Shown: positions 1,933 to 7,811 of the stretch, piece after piece
Numbering within the stretch: position 1 is the stretch's first letter
How the letters are laid out: each line of letters opens with the position of its first letter
The notes under the pieces: model-generated
Told to the model about the DNA's origin: nothing
Databases searched by the model: none
What the model saw: the letters and a program-made list of their open reading frames with translations, nothing else
Made by a program: the position numbers and the translations under genes
NCBI GenBank assembly: GCA_001304015.1
Contig: LJUY01000019.1
Coordinates: 1 to 38,191, forward strand
Direction: 5' to 3'
DNA length: 38,191 bases
Origin: a candidate division Zixibacteria bacterium SM23_81
GTDB lineage: Bacteria > SM23-81

Positions 1933-2277
1933 GATAACAAAAAGAGGCTCGTATTCCTAAAGATCGCGGTGGAAGGACCTTTGGGGCTATCCGACTCGGT
2001 CAGGAGAAGGGTGGATCTGGCGTTGCCCTTGCCCAGGTTTGAGTTCACTCATGGAATCTTCCTGGCAGTGCTTCCGGCGCAGTTCTGCCGAGCTTGGGCT
2101 CTTCCTCGAGACGAAAAAAATCACAAGGAGTCCAGGGACGAGAGTTTATTCTATGGTAAGAAGTCAATGCTAAAATAGTAACTTCCAACCTTAAGGAGGT
2201 TGTCTATACGTTTCTCTCCGAGTCGAAGATGTAGTTCATGTCAATGTAAATTTGAAAACCGAGCGGAGGAAGATTTC
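1933..2277. other. Gene-free stretch upstream of malic enzyme
   Basis: About 345 bases with no convincing gene. A 69-codon frame (1969-2178, GTG start) lacks a ribosome-binding site and resembles no family. An orphan AAGGAGGT stands at 2193-2200, about 78 bases before the malic enzyme ATG. TAAAAT at 2171-2176 could be a -10 box but has no good -35 partner. No known riboswitch was recognised. Confidence 0.5.
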
Positions 2278-3621
2278 ATGCCAGAAAAGCTCACTGAAGA
2301 ACAACTTCTGGCCAAGGCCCGAAAGCCGGGCGAGGACGCCATGAAATTACATCCTTTTTACCGTGGCAAAATCGAGATCGTGCCCAAGTGCCGCATCAGG
2401 GATTTCGACGACTTTGCCATCTGGTATACCCCCGGCGTGGCGCAACCCTGCCTGGACATCCACAAAAACCCGGAGAAGGTACTGGATTACACCAACAAGT
2501 CGAACATGGTTGCTGTGGTCACCGACGGCACCAGGGTTTTGGGCTTGGGGGATATCGGTCCCGAGGCGGGAATGCCGGTGATGGAGGGTAAAGGAATTCT
2601 CTTCAAGTACTTGGGTGGCGTGGACGCCTTCCCCATCGGCTTGGATACCAAAGATCCCGACGAGATCATCCAGGCCGTGAAGTGGCTGCACCCCTCTTTT
2701 GGAGGAATCAACCTTGAGGACATCTCCCAACCCAAGTGCTTCCATATCCTGGACACCCTCCGGGCGGAGATGCCCATACCCGTCTGGCACGACGACCAGC
2801 AGGGCACCGCGGCCATCACCCTGGCCGGGTTGATCAACGCCTTGAAAATCGTGGGCAAAGAGATCAATCAGGTCAAGGTAGCCATGATCGGCGCTGGAGC
2901 CTCCAACATCTGCATCGCCCGCTTATTGATCAGCGCCGGGTTTGACCCGGCGAAAATAGTGCTGGTGGACAGCAAGGGCACCCTGCACAAAGGCAGAACT
3001 GAGCTCCAAGAGAGATTCAAGGAGAAGTGGGAGATGTGCCAGAAGACCAACGTCGAGAGCATCCAGGGCGGCCCAGCGGAGGCCATCAAAGGCTCCGACG
3101 TCTGCATAGGCCTATCCACCCCAGGACCGGACACCATCAAGAAGGAATGGATCGCCAGTATGGCCGAAGATGCCATCGTCTTCGCCTGCGCCAATCCCAT
3201 TCCGGAGATCTGGCCCTGGGAGGCCGAAGAAGCCGGAGCCCGGGTAGTGGCTACGGGACGCTCCGATTTCCCCAATCAGGTGAACAACTCCCTGGGTTTT
3301 CCCGGCATCTTCCGGGGCACCCTGGATGTGGAGGCACGAACCATCACCGACGAGATGTGCATCGCCGCTGCCTACGAGCTGGCCCAGTGTGCCGAGGATA
3401 AAGGGCTTTCCGAGGAGTATATCGTCCCCACCATGGATGAGTGGGAGGTGTTCCCTCGGGAAGCCACGGCGGTGGGCATGAAGGCCATCGAGCAGGGAGT
3501 GGCTCGTTTAAACATGACCAGGGAAGAGCTGTATGAGAAATCCTCTGCCATCATCAAGAGGGCCAGGGAGGAAACCATGATGTTGATGAGAGAAGGTTTC
3601 ATCCCCAAGGCTCCCGAGTGA
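2278..3621 (+). CDS. NAD(P)-dependent malic enzyme, short bacterial form
   Basis: A 447-residue cytoplasmic enzyme that oxidatively decarboxylates malate to pyruvate and CO2 with reduction of NAD(P). Visible motifs are WYTPGVA with the catalytic Tyr (about residue 50), the VTDGTRVLGLGDIGP block (about 80-95), PVMEGKG with the catalytic Lys, NLEDISQPKCF and VWHDDQQGTA with the metal-binding acids. They are followed by the Rossmann segment GAGASN (about 202-207), FACANPIPEI and the TGRSDFPNQVNN loop. There is no C-terminal phosphotransacetylase domain, so this is the short form. ATG 2278 has GGAGGA seven bases upstream. The frame extends 26 codons further to a TTG at 2200, but that codon directly abuts its Shine-Dalgarno sequence and the added residues resemble nothing in the family. 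A strong terminator follows at 3648-3682, so the gene is probably monocistronic. Confidence 0.95.
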   Translation: MPEKLTEEQLLAKARKPGEDAMKLHPFYRGKIEIVPKCRIRDFDDFAIWYTPGVAQPCLDIHKNPEKVLDYTNKSNMVAVVTDGTRVLGLGDIGPEAGMPVMEGKGILFKYLGGVDAFPIGLDTKDPDEIIQAVKWLHPSFGGINLEDISQPKCFHILDTLRAEMPIPVWHDDQQGTAAITLAGLINALKIVGKEINQVKVAMIGAGASNICIARLLISAGFDPAKIVLVDSKGTLHKGRTELQERFKEKWEMCQKTNVESIQGGPAEAIKGSDVCIGLSTPGPDTIKKEWIASMAEDAIVFACANPIPEIWPWEAEEAGARVVATGRSDFPNQVNNSLGFPGIFRGTLDVEARTITDEMCIAAAYELAQCAEDKGLSEEYIVPTMDEWEVFPREATAVGMKAIEQGVARLNMTREELYEKSSAIIKRAREETMMLMREGFIPKAPE

Positions 3622-3647: not shown

Positions 3648-3682
3648 GCCCTTTGCCCTTTTATAGGGCGAAGGGCTTTTTT
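3648..3682 (+). terminator. Strong intrinsic terminator after malic enzyme
   Basis: A 12-bp stem (3648-3659 with 3665-3676, one G-U pair) closes a 5-nt loop and is followed by six T (3677-3682). It begins 26 bases after the malic enzyme stop. Confidence 0.92.
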
Positions 3683-3696
3683 ACAATTATGGTGGC

Positions 3697-4014
3697 AATG
3701 GCTATAGCAATGGCAATAGCAGTCGGCAGGAAGCATGAGGCAGGAGGCAATTTTCCAAACCCCGAATCCTGGGTCTTGGATTTCAGCTTTTCACGATCAC
3801 CGATAGCCGATCAACGATTCCCGTGTCTCAAATCTTCAATTTTCAATCTTCAATGCCTTTACATTAAGTCTCGAATCTCGATTCACCAGTCTCCTGTCTC
3901 TGTCATCCAACATCTAGGATCAAGGATCGGTCTTTCTTTTCACGATTCACGAGCCTCAAGTCTCCATTCTGTAAGAATCGATCCTGCATACTGCCTGCTG
4001 CTTACTGCCACCGG
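3697..4014. repeat. Degenerate heptanucleotide-phased tandem repeat tract
   Basis: Four hexamers (AATGGC, TATAGC, AATGGC, AATAGC; 3697-3720) are followed by 42 consecutive 7-base units from 3721 to 4014 in one unbroken register. Neighbouring units are often near-identical while the word drifts along the tract. GAGGC-ending units occur at 3735 and 3742. Four units ending CGAT occupy 3791-3818. TCTTCAA occurs at 3833 and 3847, with TTTTCAA between. GTCTCGA/ATCTCGA lie at 3868 and 3875, TTTCACG/ATTCACG at 3938 and 3945, and units ending CTG at 3980-4007. A 7-base period cannot encode a protein repeat, and the frame reading through it (3653-4102) is not a gene. The tract lies between a terminator and the next promoter, so it is probably mostly untranscribed. 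It resembles in style the short tandemly repeated heptamers known from filamentous cyanobacteria, but the words differ. Confidence 0.85.
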
Positions 4015-4020
4015 AAGTGT

Positions 4021-4050
4021 GGTGGCAGGAGGCTCCTGCTTCCTGCCACC
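4021..4050. repeat. Perfect 10-bp inverted repeat next to the heptamer tract
   Basis: GGTGGCAGGA (4021-4030) and TCCTGCCACC (4041-4050) are exact reverse complements around a 10-base loop. CTGCCACCGG occurs at both 4005-4014 and 4043-4052, so the central arm could pair on either side. It lies 44 bases upstream of the TPM-operon promoter; no T-run follows. Confidence 0.6.
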
Positions 4051-4093
4051 GGGGAATGGTTGGGAGGCGAAGGTCCTTCCTCCAGGAAAAGAG

Positions 4094-4122
4094 TTGACAT
4101 GAAGCACCCCTTTGACTATACT
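4094..4122 (+). promoter_or_regulatory. Sigma70-type promoter of the TPM / nucleotidyltransferase / LemA operon
   Basis: TTGACA (4094-4099), a 17-base spacer and TATACT (4117-4122) give a near-consensus promoter. Transcription should start near 4129, about 50 bases before ATG 4180. This argues against the longer reading frame beginning at 4060. Confidence 0.8.
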
Positions 4123-4179: not shown

Positions 4180-4941
4180 ATGCCCCGGATTCTCTTGCTC
4201 ACCATATGCGGTCTGCTTTTGCTGCTTGGCCCATCATGGGGCCAGGAAGAGTTTCCCGATCCCCTAGGCTACGTCAGCGACTTCGCTGGAATTATTTCTG
4301 ATCAGGATGAGGCCCGAATGACGTCGGTCATCTCCGAGCTGAGGGAAAAAACCACGGCCGAAATCGCTGTGGTGACCATGCCCGATATCGGCGGCCAAAG
4401 CGAGGAGATTTACGCCAATAAGCTTTTTCGAGCCTGGGGGCTAGGCGTCAAGGGCAAGGACAATGGCATCCTTCTGTTCCTGACCATACAGGAGAGGCGA
4501 TTCCGAATCGAGACGGGCTACGGCCTGGAGGGCATCCTGCCAGACGGCCTGCTGGGCCAGATCGCCGACGAACGGATCATCCCTTTTCTCCGGGAAGGCC
4601 AGTATGGAGACGGCCTGCTCTCCGGGACATTGGAGGTGGCCCAGATCATCGCCGCCGATGCTGGGGTTGAGCTATCGTCTGTGACAGACTTACCGCCCCC
4701 ATCGACCACCACCAGCCGGGGAACCAAACCTTTTCGAATTCCATTCTTTCTAATCATACTCCTGGTCTTCTTCATCTTCGGAGGCCGCATGGGCTTGCTG
4801 CCTCTTCTCTTTTTTGGGGGTCTGCCTCGAGGCCGCGGCAGATTCGGGAGCGGTGGCTTCGGAGGGGGTGGTTTCGGGGGTGGGTTTGGAGGATTCGGCG
4901 GAGGGCTTAGCGGAGGGGGAGGCGTTAGTCGAGGTTTTTAA
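4180..4941 (+). CDS. TPM-domain (YgcG-like, DUF477) membrane protein with glycine-rich tail
   Basis: A 253-residue exported and membrane-anchored protein. A signal peptide (residues 1-21, hydrophobic core ILLLTICGLLLLL) precedes a TPM domain (about 27-155) with the family blocks VSDFAGIIS, AEIAVVTMPDI, DNGILLFLTIQERRFRIETGYGLEG and a hydrophobic GTLEVAQII helix. A Pro/Ser/Thr linker follows, then one or two membrane segments (about 185-212) and a Gly/Phe/Arg-rich tail of about 35 residues ending GVSRGF. TPM proteins are thought to act at the envelope; a phosphatase activity has been described for a plant relative, but the bacterial role is unsettled. The start is chosen because a promoter at 4094-4122 would begin transcription downstream of the earlier in-frame starts. 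The ribosome-binding site (AGGGG) is weak. It heads an operon with a nucleotidyltransferase-like gene and lemA. Confidence 0.88.
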   Translation: MPRILLLTICGLLLLLGPSWGQEEFPDPLGYVSDFAGIISDQDEARMTSVISELREKTTAEIAVVTMPDIGGQSEEIYANKLFRAWGLGVKGKDNGILLFLTIQERRFRIETGYGLEGILPDGLLGQIADERIIPFLREGQYGDGLLSGTLEVAQIIAADAGVELSSVTDLPPPSTTTSRGTKPFRIPFFLIILLVFFIFGGRMGLLPLLFFGGLPRGRGRFGSGGFGGGGFGGGFGGFGGGLSGGGGVSRGF

Positions 4942-6396: not shown

Positions 6397-6939
6397 TCAG
6401 GGATTCGAGGATTCAAGGGGTCCCACCCTACTGTCTCCAAACCTCAAATCAAAATCCAACATCTGGTCACCATCGAAGACAAATCGACCATCAAAGGTTC
6501 TTCCGCTCAACATGACTGGCACCCAGTGGCTGTCGTCCTCCCACATCTGTTCATACGGTATCGCGTCGATGGGCGTCCAGATCGGCTCCGCCTCATCGGT
6601 CTCCTGCGGACTTCCTACACAATCTTTGGCCACGAATACATATACGTGCAACGAAAGCCCATCAACAAACTGAAAGCGAAGCTCCCCCATTTGTCGAATA
6701 CCAACAGGTATTACACAAAGCTCCTCCTGCGCCTCCCGAACGGCACCTTCTAACGGTGTTTCCCCCGATCCAATCCGCCCCCCGGGCGCATTGATCTTTC
6801 CTACCCCCAGGCCCTTTCTCTTTCTGATCAGGAGCACCTGCCCATCCCGAATCACAAAGACGAGTGTAGCTCGTTGTTGTGGCTTCCAATTTTGCCAGTC
6901 TATGTCCCGCAGTCTCAATCTATCCTCACGCCTTGACAT
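6397..6939 (-). CDS. Nudix hydrolase (MutT/MTH1-like)
   Basis: A 180-residue Nudix protein, expected to hydrolyse a nucleoside diphosphate linked to another moiety. The full Nudix box is present: G54-x5-E60-x7-R68-E69-x2-E72-E73-L. It is preceded by RKRKGLGVGKINAPGG, which resembles the segment before the box in MTH1/8-oxo-dGTP-type enzymes; substrate assignment from this is inference. The frame is open for 48 more codons upstream, but those lie inside the preceding gene. The chosen ATG 6939 overlaps that gene's stop by one base (TGATG), indicating translational coupling, and the family's first strand follows soon after. Last gene of the ten-gene minus-strand array; shares a bidirectional terminator with lemA. 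Confidence 0.85.
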   Translation of the reverse strand: MSRREDRLRLRDIDWQNWKPQQRATLVFVIRDGQVLLIRKRKGLGVGKINAPGGRIGSGETPLEGAVREAQEELCVIPVGIRQMGELRFQFVDGLSLHVYVFVAKDCVGSPQETDEAEPIWTPIDAIPYEQMWEDDSHWVPVMLSGRTFDGRFVFDGDQMLDFDLRFGDSRVGPLESSNP

Positions 6940-7811
6940 CACCGGGGGCTGTGAGCATGAATCTTCATCCTCTGCATCCCGAAGATAACTCGCTTTACCT
7001 TTTGCCTCTCTTCCACCGGGGTCAGCAGCTCCAATCGCGACGCTGGCCAATCCAGGCTGGAGACCAGGCCCAGGCCGAGACACTCACCTTGACCATCGTG
7101 CAACCCTACGATCTGTCCAGACCAATTGGCGCGCTCTTCCCCGGGTGCAATCCCCTCAAGAGCCAGGCTGTCCATGGTGAGATTCAGCTGAGCGGCCCCC
7201 CTGAGGTAGTTTGCCCAAGCCTGCTCCCTGAGCTTCCTGCGGCGAGCCGTCGATTTGCGCCGGATGCCCGGGGCCGACTTCAGCTGGTGGCAGGTCAAGT
7301 CCTCCTGCTCGTGGCACAATTGAGTCAGAGATTCCAAGTTCACAGTCCTGGTCAGCAGGACCATGCGATCCGGTCCCACCATCTCCATCATTCCCCGAGC
7401 CAGCCTCCAGGCGAACTTCCCCTTGACCAATCCGCAGCTGTCCACCACGATCAGGGATAACTTCTTGCCCCTGGCCCTGGCCACCATCTTAGCCACTCCC
7501 ACGCCCATGCGAGAAAAGTGCCCGGCGGGGGAATGAGATCCGATGAAATAGAGGGCCTCTGCTGGAACGGCGCTGAGCTCCGGAAAGGGCTTCTCCATTA
7601 TGCCCATGCCAATGGCAGCCGGAGGGCCGATATGGGACTGGCCCACGTCGGCATCCACCACGGCAACCTTCAGGCCGGCCTGTGCTCCGGCATTGGCCAA
7701 AAACAAACAGAAAGCGGTTTTGCCCACATCCCCCTCGCCGGCCACCATCACCGTTCCCGGAGACTCGATTATTCTCCCAATGGCGTGCTGCCAATGTGTG
7801 GGGCAGCGCAT
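6939..7811 (-). CDS. Clp1/Grc3-type polynucleotide 5'-hydroxyl kinase
   Basis: A 290-residue P-loop protein of the Clp1_P type, the family that phosphorylates 5'-OH RNA (or DNA) ends with ATP or GTP. The Walker A loop is GEGDVGKT at residues 25-32. The family-specific block VDADVGQSHIGPP lies at 52-64, and a Walker B-like IVVDSCGLVKGKFAWRLARG strand-helix follows near 120-140 with the MVGPDRMVLLTR strand. The Arg-rich segment RRKSTARRRKLREQ at about 182-195 fits the basic region of the family. A C-terminal beta domain ends the protein; the eukaryotic N-terminal extension is absent. GGAGGG stands nine bases before ATG 7811. It is encoded in the same array as a KptA 2'-phosphotransferase. Substrate (RNA or DNA) is not determinable from sequence. 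Confidence 0.8.
   Translation of the reverse strand: MRCPTHWQHAIGRIIESPGTVMVAGEGDVGKTAFCLFLANAGAQAGLKVAVVDADVGQSHIGPPAAIGMGIMEKPFPELSAVPAEALYFIGSHSPAGHFSRMGVGVAKMVARARGKKLSLIVVDSCGLVKGKFAWRLARGMMEMVGPDRMVLLTRTVNLESLTQLCHEQEDLTCHQLKSAPGIRRKSTARRRKLREQAWANYLRGAAQLNLTMDSLALEGIAPGEERANWSGQIVGLHDGQGECLGLGLVSSLDWPASRLELLTPVEERQKVKRVIFGMQRMKIHAHSPR

Follow-up and report, generated by a model that had tools for sequence, protein, structure and literature searches.

How can a stretch of intergenic DNA keep a step of seven bases while its word changes from one unit to the next? The question is raised by a spacer that separates the genes for a malic enzyme (2200-3621) and a TPM-domain protein (about 4180-4941) in the window, that is, the whole stretch of 38,191 nt analysed here. 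The window belongs to the uncultivated candidate division Zixibacteria bacterium SM23_81, whose genome (G000) comprises 3.07 Mb in 99 contigs. Within this spacer, the tract stands between a hairpin with a T run that resembles a terminator (3655-3682) and a predicted promoter (4094-4122).

Period and register of the tract

The autocorrelation of 3721-4014 was determined against a background of 1000 dinucleotide shuffles. The identity at lag 7 is 0.540 versus 0.257 ± 0.026 (z = 10.8), so the period of 7 bases is real, and lags 5, 6, 8, and 9 lie at the background or lower. The identity is 0.443 at lag 14, 0.337 at lag 21, and 0.320 at lag 28. A maximal-segment scan placed the lag-7 tract at 3719-4059. 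It is the sole one in the window, where nothing else comes near it. The hexamers that an earlier note had placed ahead of the heptamers were recovered by TRF at 3693-3721 with a period of 6/12.

The same note had read 42 heptamers in one unbroken register. This reading fails, as lag-7 matching collapses at about 3847-3854 and again at about 3964-3968, and the in-phase correlation is gone after 4-5 units. Identical 6-mers at most 35 bases apart are in phase in 19 of 19 pairs. On the other hand, 8-mers that recur at distances above 35 bases never do so in phase: CAATTTTC at 3748 and 3837 (offset 5), TTTTCACG at 3788 and 3937 (offset 2), and CGATTCAC at 3879 and 3943 (offset 1). These far repeats represent few independent events, and the claim is therefore restricted to a loss of register. 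None of 45 far 6-mers is in phase in the window, a count which is not taken as significant because about five independent word recurrences underlie it.

About nine blocks, each of 3-6 imperfect heptamers, make up the window tract as a mosaic, with a hexamer block ahead of them. Its features and immediate surroundings are listed below, with the strand where one is assigned. G001 denotes the nearest relative compared, a member of the same family and of another genus.

3655-3682, + strand: hairpin and T run resembling an intrinsic terminator, downstream of the malic enzyme gene; a comparable one lies in the orthologous G001 spacer
3693-3721: hexamer block GGCAAT/AGCAAT, outer, in purine-rich orientation (TRF; sisters at C29:55816 and C92:10808)
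3722-3749: heptamer block GGCAGGA/GGCAGTA (TRF, autocorrelation, sister matches)
3750-3786: mixed heptamer block with words of the CCCGAAT and CTTGGAT types (autocorrelation, vocabulary)
3787-3825: linker TTTTCACGA and heptamer block GATNACC/GATCAAC (match to L019, 87.5% over 40 bp)
3826-3858: heptamer block AATCTTC (sisters at L009, 90% over 63 bp, L013, and L035)
3859-3902: heptamer block GTCTCGA/ATCTCGA (vocabulary, sister matches)
3903-3928: heptamer block GGATCAA/GGATCCA (vocabulary, sister matches; the block is also present in G001)
3929-3937: non-periodic linker within GGATCGGTCTTTCTTTT, kept at many loci of both genera
3938-3970: heptamer block ATTCACG/AGTCTCC (vocabulary, sister matches)
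3980-4013: heptamer block TACTGCC, the reverse complement of the 3722-3749 word (TRF, vocabulary)
4021-4050: hairpin GGTGGCAGGAGGC-TCCT-GCTTCCTGCCACC, built from the TACTGCC/GGCAGTA word (folding analysis)
4094-4122, + strand: sigma-70-like promoter TTGACA-17-TATACT of the TPM-domain gene, conserved in G001

The junction of the 3826-3858 block to the next block recurs at three other loci, with a 2-base indel in two of them and a larger gap in the third.

Pfam gave no match to the sole long open reading frame over the tract (3653-4102) and Rfam none to the window, and the period is not a multiple of 3. By these tests, the tract is not a known RNA, nor is it a decayed gene, the outcome which the earlier note had set against its own reading. 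Elsewhere in the window, positions 6939-7811 on the minus strand encode a protein whose P-loop kinase domain is of the CLP1 type (PF16575), a family that takes its name from an mRNA cleavage factor.

A dispersed family with a common vocabulary

A DNA search of the genome with the tract found 28 further places in G000 at E <= 1e-3, and nearly all of those fetched hold the same kind of tract. A sample of 430 kb was made up of the window, three long contigs, and a portion of another. In this sample, 19 lag-7 tracts reached the threshold versus 0 in a Markov-5 control, and no tracts were found at lags 10, 11, 13, 16, and 17. About 20 of its spacers bear tracts. The tracts of a genome would number about a hundred or more, which is a rough extrapolation because the sampled contigs each already had at least one match to the window tract. 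The tracts are nearly all intergenic and are confined to spacers of at least 200 bp, which they often fill. The gene arrangement is tandem at 19 of 21 tract spacers versus 99 of 113 other spacers, which is close.

The word classes were set by eye. About ten words are recurrent, namely GATTCGA/GATTCGT, GGATCCT, CGGGATC, GATCGTT, GATTGAA, GTGAAAA, ACGTAAT, and GGCAGTA, together with words that have a period of their own, GGCAAT (6), AAGGATTC (8), and GAGAGTTTA (9). The hexamer and GGCAGTA tend to stand outside and the others inside, which is a tendency and not a rule. Linkers such as AAAGAAAGACCGATCC recur alongside the vocabulary words, and linkers such as GGATCGGTCTTTCTTTT are conserved genome-wide and in another genus. 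Inside the tract, distant units do share almost nothing, as had been stated. Genome-wide, however, nearly every block has close and significant sisters elsewhere. The drift of the words is therefore not free, contrary to the first description, and the words come from a vocabulary on which dozens of loci in two genera draw.

Spacers that are not homologous share segments of 60-356 bp at 70-93% identity, non-periodic linkers included. For instance, 3826-3886 matches C49:25457-25519 at 90% across the junction of two different words, and 3912-3970 has matches at many loci of both genera that include the non-periodic linker GGTCTTTCTTTT. A composite of 150-200 bp is common to five loci. The comparison of copies indicates that the heptamer tracts end raggedly. 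Four loci whose flanks are unrelated have kept an octamer element of about 165 bp. The element is sharply delimited, its octamer arms are inverted, and its conserved ends carry terminal inverted repeats.

A nested dispersed element of roughly 110-130 bp, GTCATGCCTGCG..GCAGGCATCTCC ... GATTCCGGCATTCGCCGGAATGAC, is found nearly identical within heptamer tracts of G001 at L153 (~1833), L154 (~1775), L161 (~1768), and L181 (~1327). The G000 tracts at L040 (~2050) and in L021 hold a related element, CATTCCCGCG..GCGGGAATC.

Turnover between two genera

The malic enzyme contig of G001 coincides with GenBank DAOVRJ010000076.1 (Candidatus Zixiibacteriota CSMAG_1598). Its malic enzyme-TPM spacer also carries a tract between terminator and promoter, made of different words. 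This orthologous tract ranks 12th of 14 G001 tracts in similarity to the window tract, no higher than unrelated tracts, and non-orthologous G001 tracts match the window tract well. Two other orthologous pairs rank 1st and 5th. One of the three pairs is still a mutual best match; therefore, turnover is incomplete in places. At another position, a G001 spacer has a tract and its G000 counterpart is about 50 bp long and tract-free. The flanks of this single presence/absence pair are too diverged for a target duplication to be read. One tract sits between a promoter and a start codon.

Copies are separated by gaps of 7, 14, and 21 bases. Among gaps of at least 4 bases, 4-5 of 6-8 are multiples of 7, varying with the gap costs, in a small sample and with a periodic sequence that eases the alignment of such gaps. 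Repeated local duplication, which had been suggested from the window alone, fits the decay of identity per unit and these indels of exactly 7, 14, and 21 bases.

Two G001 contig pairs have about 122-125 bases in common and then diverge inside a tract. They look like strain variants, and chimeric assembly is the alternative. Contig starts lie within tracts in 4 of 20 cases in G001 and 0 of 20 in G000. Contig ends were considered as proof of strain hypervariability and rejected as such, being suggestive at most. L171 (1-140) and L172 (3331-3767), from G001 contigs C72 and C212, have about 125 bases in common before they separate within the tract, and the longer branch ends in an apparent insertion-sequence end with GGCTATACTCCTT repeated in inverse. 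L146 and L147 (C302 and C271) have the TPM promoter side and part of the tract in common and differ in their upstream neighbours, through either a strain rearrangement at the tract or a chimeric contig. The comparison of L170 (902-3740) with L048 (6-3308) shows that G001 has the gene upstream of the C49:1023 tract in inverted orientation and no tract after it, which places a rearrangement breakpoint at or near that tract. In L194 and L207 (starts of G001 C7 and C22), the same 60-mers recur throughout both, probably as a low-complexity or masked stretch.

Polarity and folding

Tract spacers run from purine-rich on the left to pyrimidine-rich on the right by 18:3 (18 of 21), versus 35:50 in tract-free spacers. 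This polarity is independent of the strand, as it is unchanged on taking the other strand. Two distant genomes, G041 and G042, gave the same polarity, by 20:3 among the tracts fetched. Left halves resemble the reverse complement of right halves more than the direct strand, and this match is no better within a locus than between loci. The G042 tracts are hairpin-like with a recurrent core, and their folding was not weakened when right arms were swapped between loci. In L233-L242 of this genome, several hairpin-like tracts pair as short helices interrupted by mismatches seven positions apart, since the words in one arm differ systematically from those in the other. Folding is weakly better than that of shuffles (window z = -2.1; median -1.0 in G000 and -1.9 in other lineages). 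A conserved hairpin with co-varying arms was rejected, since the arm match within a locus is not above that between loci. Considering also the harmless arm swaps, the inverted arrangement belongs to the vocabulary and is not a demonstrated maintained hairpin.

Tracts in other lineages

Seventy-nine loci of other lineages (793 kb), chosen solely for encoding a malic enzyme relative, were scanned. Intergenic lag-7 tracts appeared in 17 of the 79. Each of the remaining lags between 3 and 16 gave at most 5, and the lag-7 controls gave 0. The words are different (for example, GGAGTAA, GGGAATA, and GGAAGTG). The decay of identity per unit is nearly alike, with 0.49, 0.40, 0.34, and 0.29 in G000, 0.50, 0.39, 0.32, and 0.28 in G001, and 0.55, 0.45, 0.38, and 0.32 in the other lineages, a likeness that may be overstated as the tracts were picked by their lag-7 signal with one scoring scheme.

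Origin of the tracts

The best explanation, to which we assign a probability of roughly 0.55, is a dispersed mosaic family of intergenic repeats that would grow by slippage in steps of 7 bases and spread by block copying, with no host function needed. The comparison of sequences establishes periodicity, blocks, vocabulary, dispersal, unit-sized indels, and turnover at a conserved position. From these we infer slippage as the growth step and recombination or conversion, with no dedicated transposase, as the spreading step. Locally, a block of 3-6 imperfect heptamers (or, for particular words, of 6-, 8-, or 9-mers) would gain and lose whole units, and the simplest route to this is slippage during replication or unequal exchange, 7 bases at a time. 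One or more blocks, together with their linkers, may be copied from spacer to spacer, so that each spacer would be a shifting mosaic of words used across the lineage. The drift from unit to unit would come from point mutations between such events. Between a terminator and a promoter, growth of the window array would cost little. Slippage with copying leaves the step of 7 and the opposite word orientation of the two halves unaccounted for. Slippage alone is opposed by the polarity and the shared vocabulary, neither of which follows from it. Slippage ordinarily gives perfect units; adjacent units within the tracts differ at about half their positions.

The main rival is a non-autonomous mobile element, MITE- or REP/BIME-like, with a transposase encoded elsewhere, in which the tracts are nested insertions and the heptamers are degenerate inverted-repeat arms. 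It is possible and rather doubtful. The polarity with nested word order in many tracts, the sharply limited octamer element, the hairpin-like G042 tracts, and the presence or absence of a tract between genera would all suit it. However, the heptamer tracts have ragged ends, neither a clean insertion site nor a target duplication was recovered, the flanks of the single presence/absence pair being too diverged to read, and co-variation of the arms within loci is absent in G000 and G042. A RAYT/Y1 transposase as the mover was rejected, as none of the three PF01797 genes of G000 has a period-7 tract in its fetched flanks; a hexamer block lies near one of them. Selection for a regulatory or structural element, be it a transcription boundary, a bidirectional hairpin terminator, or a binding lattice with a step of 7 bases, is unlikely. 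The exact position of the window tract between terminator and promoter, its retention there in the other genus, and the same period in distant lineages speak for it, but the folding is scarcely above shuffles, tracts come and go between genera, one of them separates a promoter from a start codon, and the gene arrangement is near that of other spacers. Selection on a spacing of 7 bases had been one of two alternatives in the earlier note. For the whole tract it is rejected as the main reading, because units more than about 35 bp apart are no more alike in phase than the background, or less so.

A dedicated copying enzyme, such as a reverse transcriptase or a repair polymerase with a step of roughly 7 nt, could write the tracts and would explain why the decay is so alike in G000, G001, and other lineages despite unrelated words and why 7 is strongly preferred over neighbouring periods. 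Polymerase slippage is also expected to give a shared step, and we consider such an enzyme very improbable. More tentatively than the family of slipping and copied blocks, and with considerable doubt, one common unrecognised copying process, polymerase- or hairpin-based, might continually write and rewrite intergenic DNA in distant lineages. The footprint of this doubtful process would be words that differ between lineages, combined with a shared 7-base step, decay over 4-5 units, and purine-to-pyrimidine polarity. An artefact of assembly or binning, or a decayed gene, is hardly credible. The assembly is fragmented and G001 contigs sometimes start in tracts, but in two genomes that were binned independently, tracts are found between orthologous genes in the interior of long contigs, G000 contigs do not start in them in the 20 cases, and the protein and RNA families gave no match.

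Relation to known repeats

REP/BIME elements are intergenic mosaics of motif blocks and linkers with inverted motifs in many copies. A mosaic of recurring motifs and linkers in many spacers was found here too. The REP/BIME unit is a palindrome of roughly 20-40 bp, whereas the unit of the present family is a heptamer block, and the RAYT (Y1) association was not found in the fetched flanks of the 3 PF01797 genes. Cyanobacterial STRR sequences have a heptamer period at many loci, as in the present family, and a fixed word per element. The word of the window tract, in contrast, changes block by block. Tandem heptameric simple-sequence repeats share the above-chance period 7 and the intergenic location with the window tract but consist of a single word throughout the array; here the adjacent identity is 0.54 and reaches the background by 5-6 units.

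The TAACTGA direct repeats of Beggiatoaceae are likewise intergenic heptamers at many loci, with a single fixed word in 2-6 copies mostly right upstream of start codons (PMC4679880). This word is absent from the window tract, and a promoter stands between tract and gene. The heptamers of Xanthomonas (GGGAATC) and Nostoc (GGGGA(C/T)T) are found between the same gene pairs in related species with extensive variation of length and sequence, and a polymerase-tied slippage step was proposed for them (PMC4692102). They resemble the present family in being intergenic and variable with conserved gene neighbours, and some form inverted pairs. However, each genome uses one G-rich, quadruplex-forming word, mostly in about four units, against about ten words here, and the window units have no G-run lattice. 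The same report mentions heptanucleotides of Calothrix and cites an over-representation of heptamers in prokaryotes (PMC4692102). In the SPADE survey, heptamers are the most abundant intergenic periodic repeats over a wide range of prokaryotes, with no clear functional clue (PMC6344855). These general heptamers agree with the present family in period, intergenic location, and wide occurrence. The SPADE arrays are near-perfect (tolerance up to about 10% DNA noise; PMC6344855), whereas adjacent units here are about 50% identical over whole tracts, with several successive words per spacer and blocks common to loci.

No description of a degenerate, multi-word, dispersed mosaic form with polarity was found in the open-access literature searched. 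The degenerate mosaic form, the shared vocabulary, and the polarity appear to be new; abundant intergenic heptamers as such are known and unexplained. The family has the look of a poorly known form of the 7-base repeats common in bacteria, not of a dedicated device. Tracts with a locally lasting period and a changing word separate the step from the word. This suggests that the step of 7 stems from the copying of DNA and not from a reader of DNA. The decay per unit, the unit-sized indels, and the polarity make up a countable signal that is comparable across genomes.
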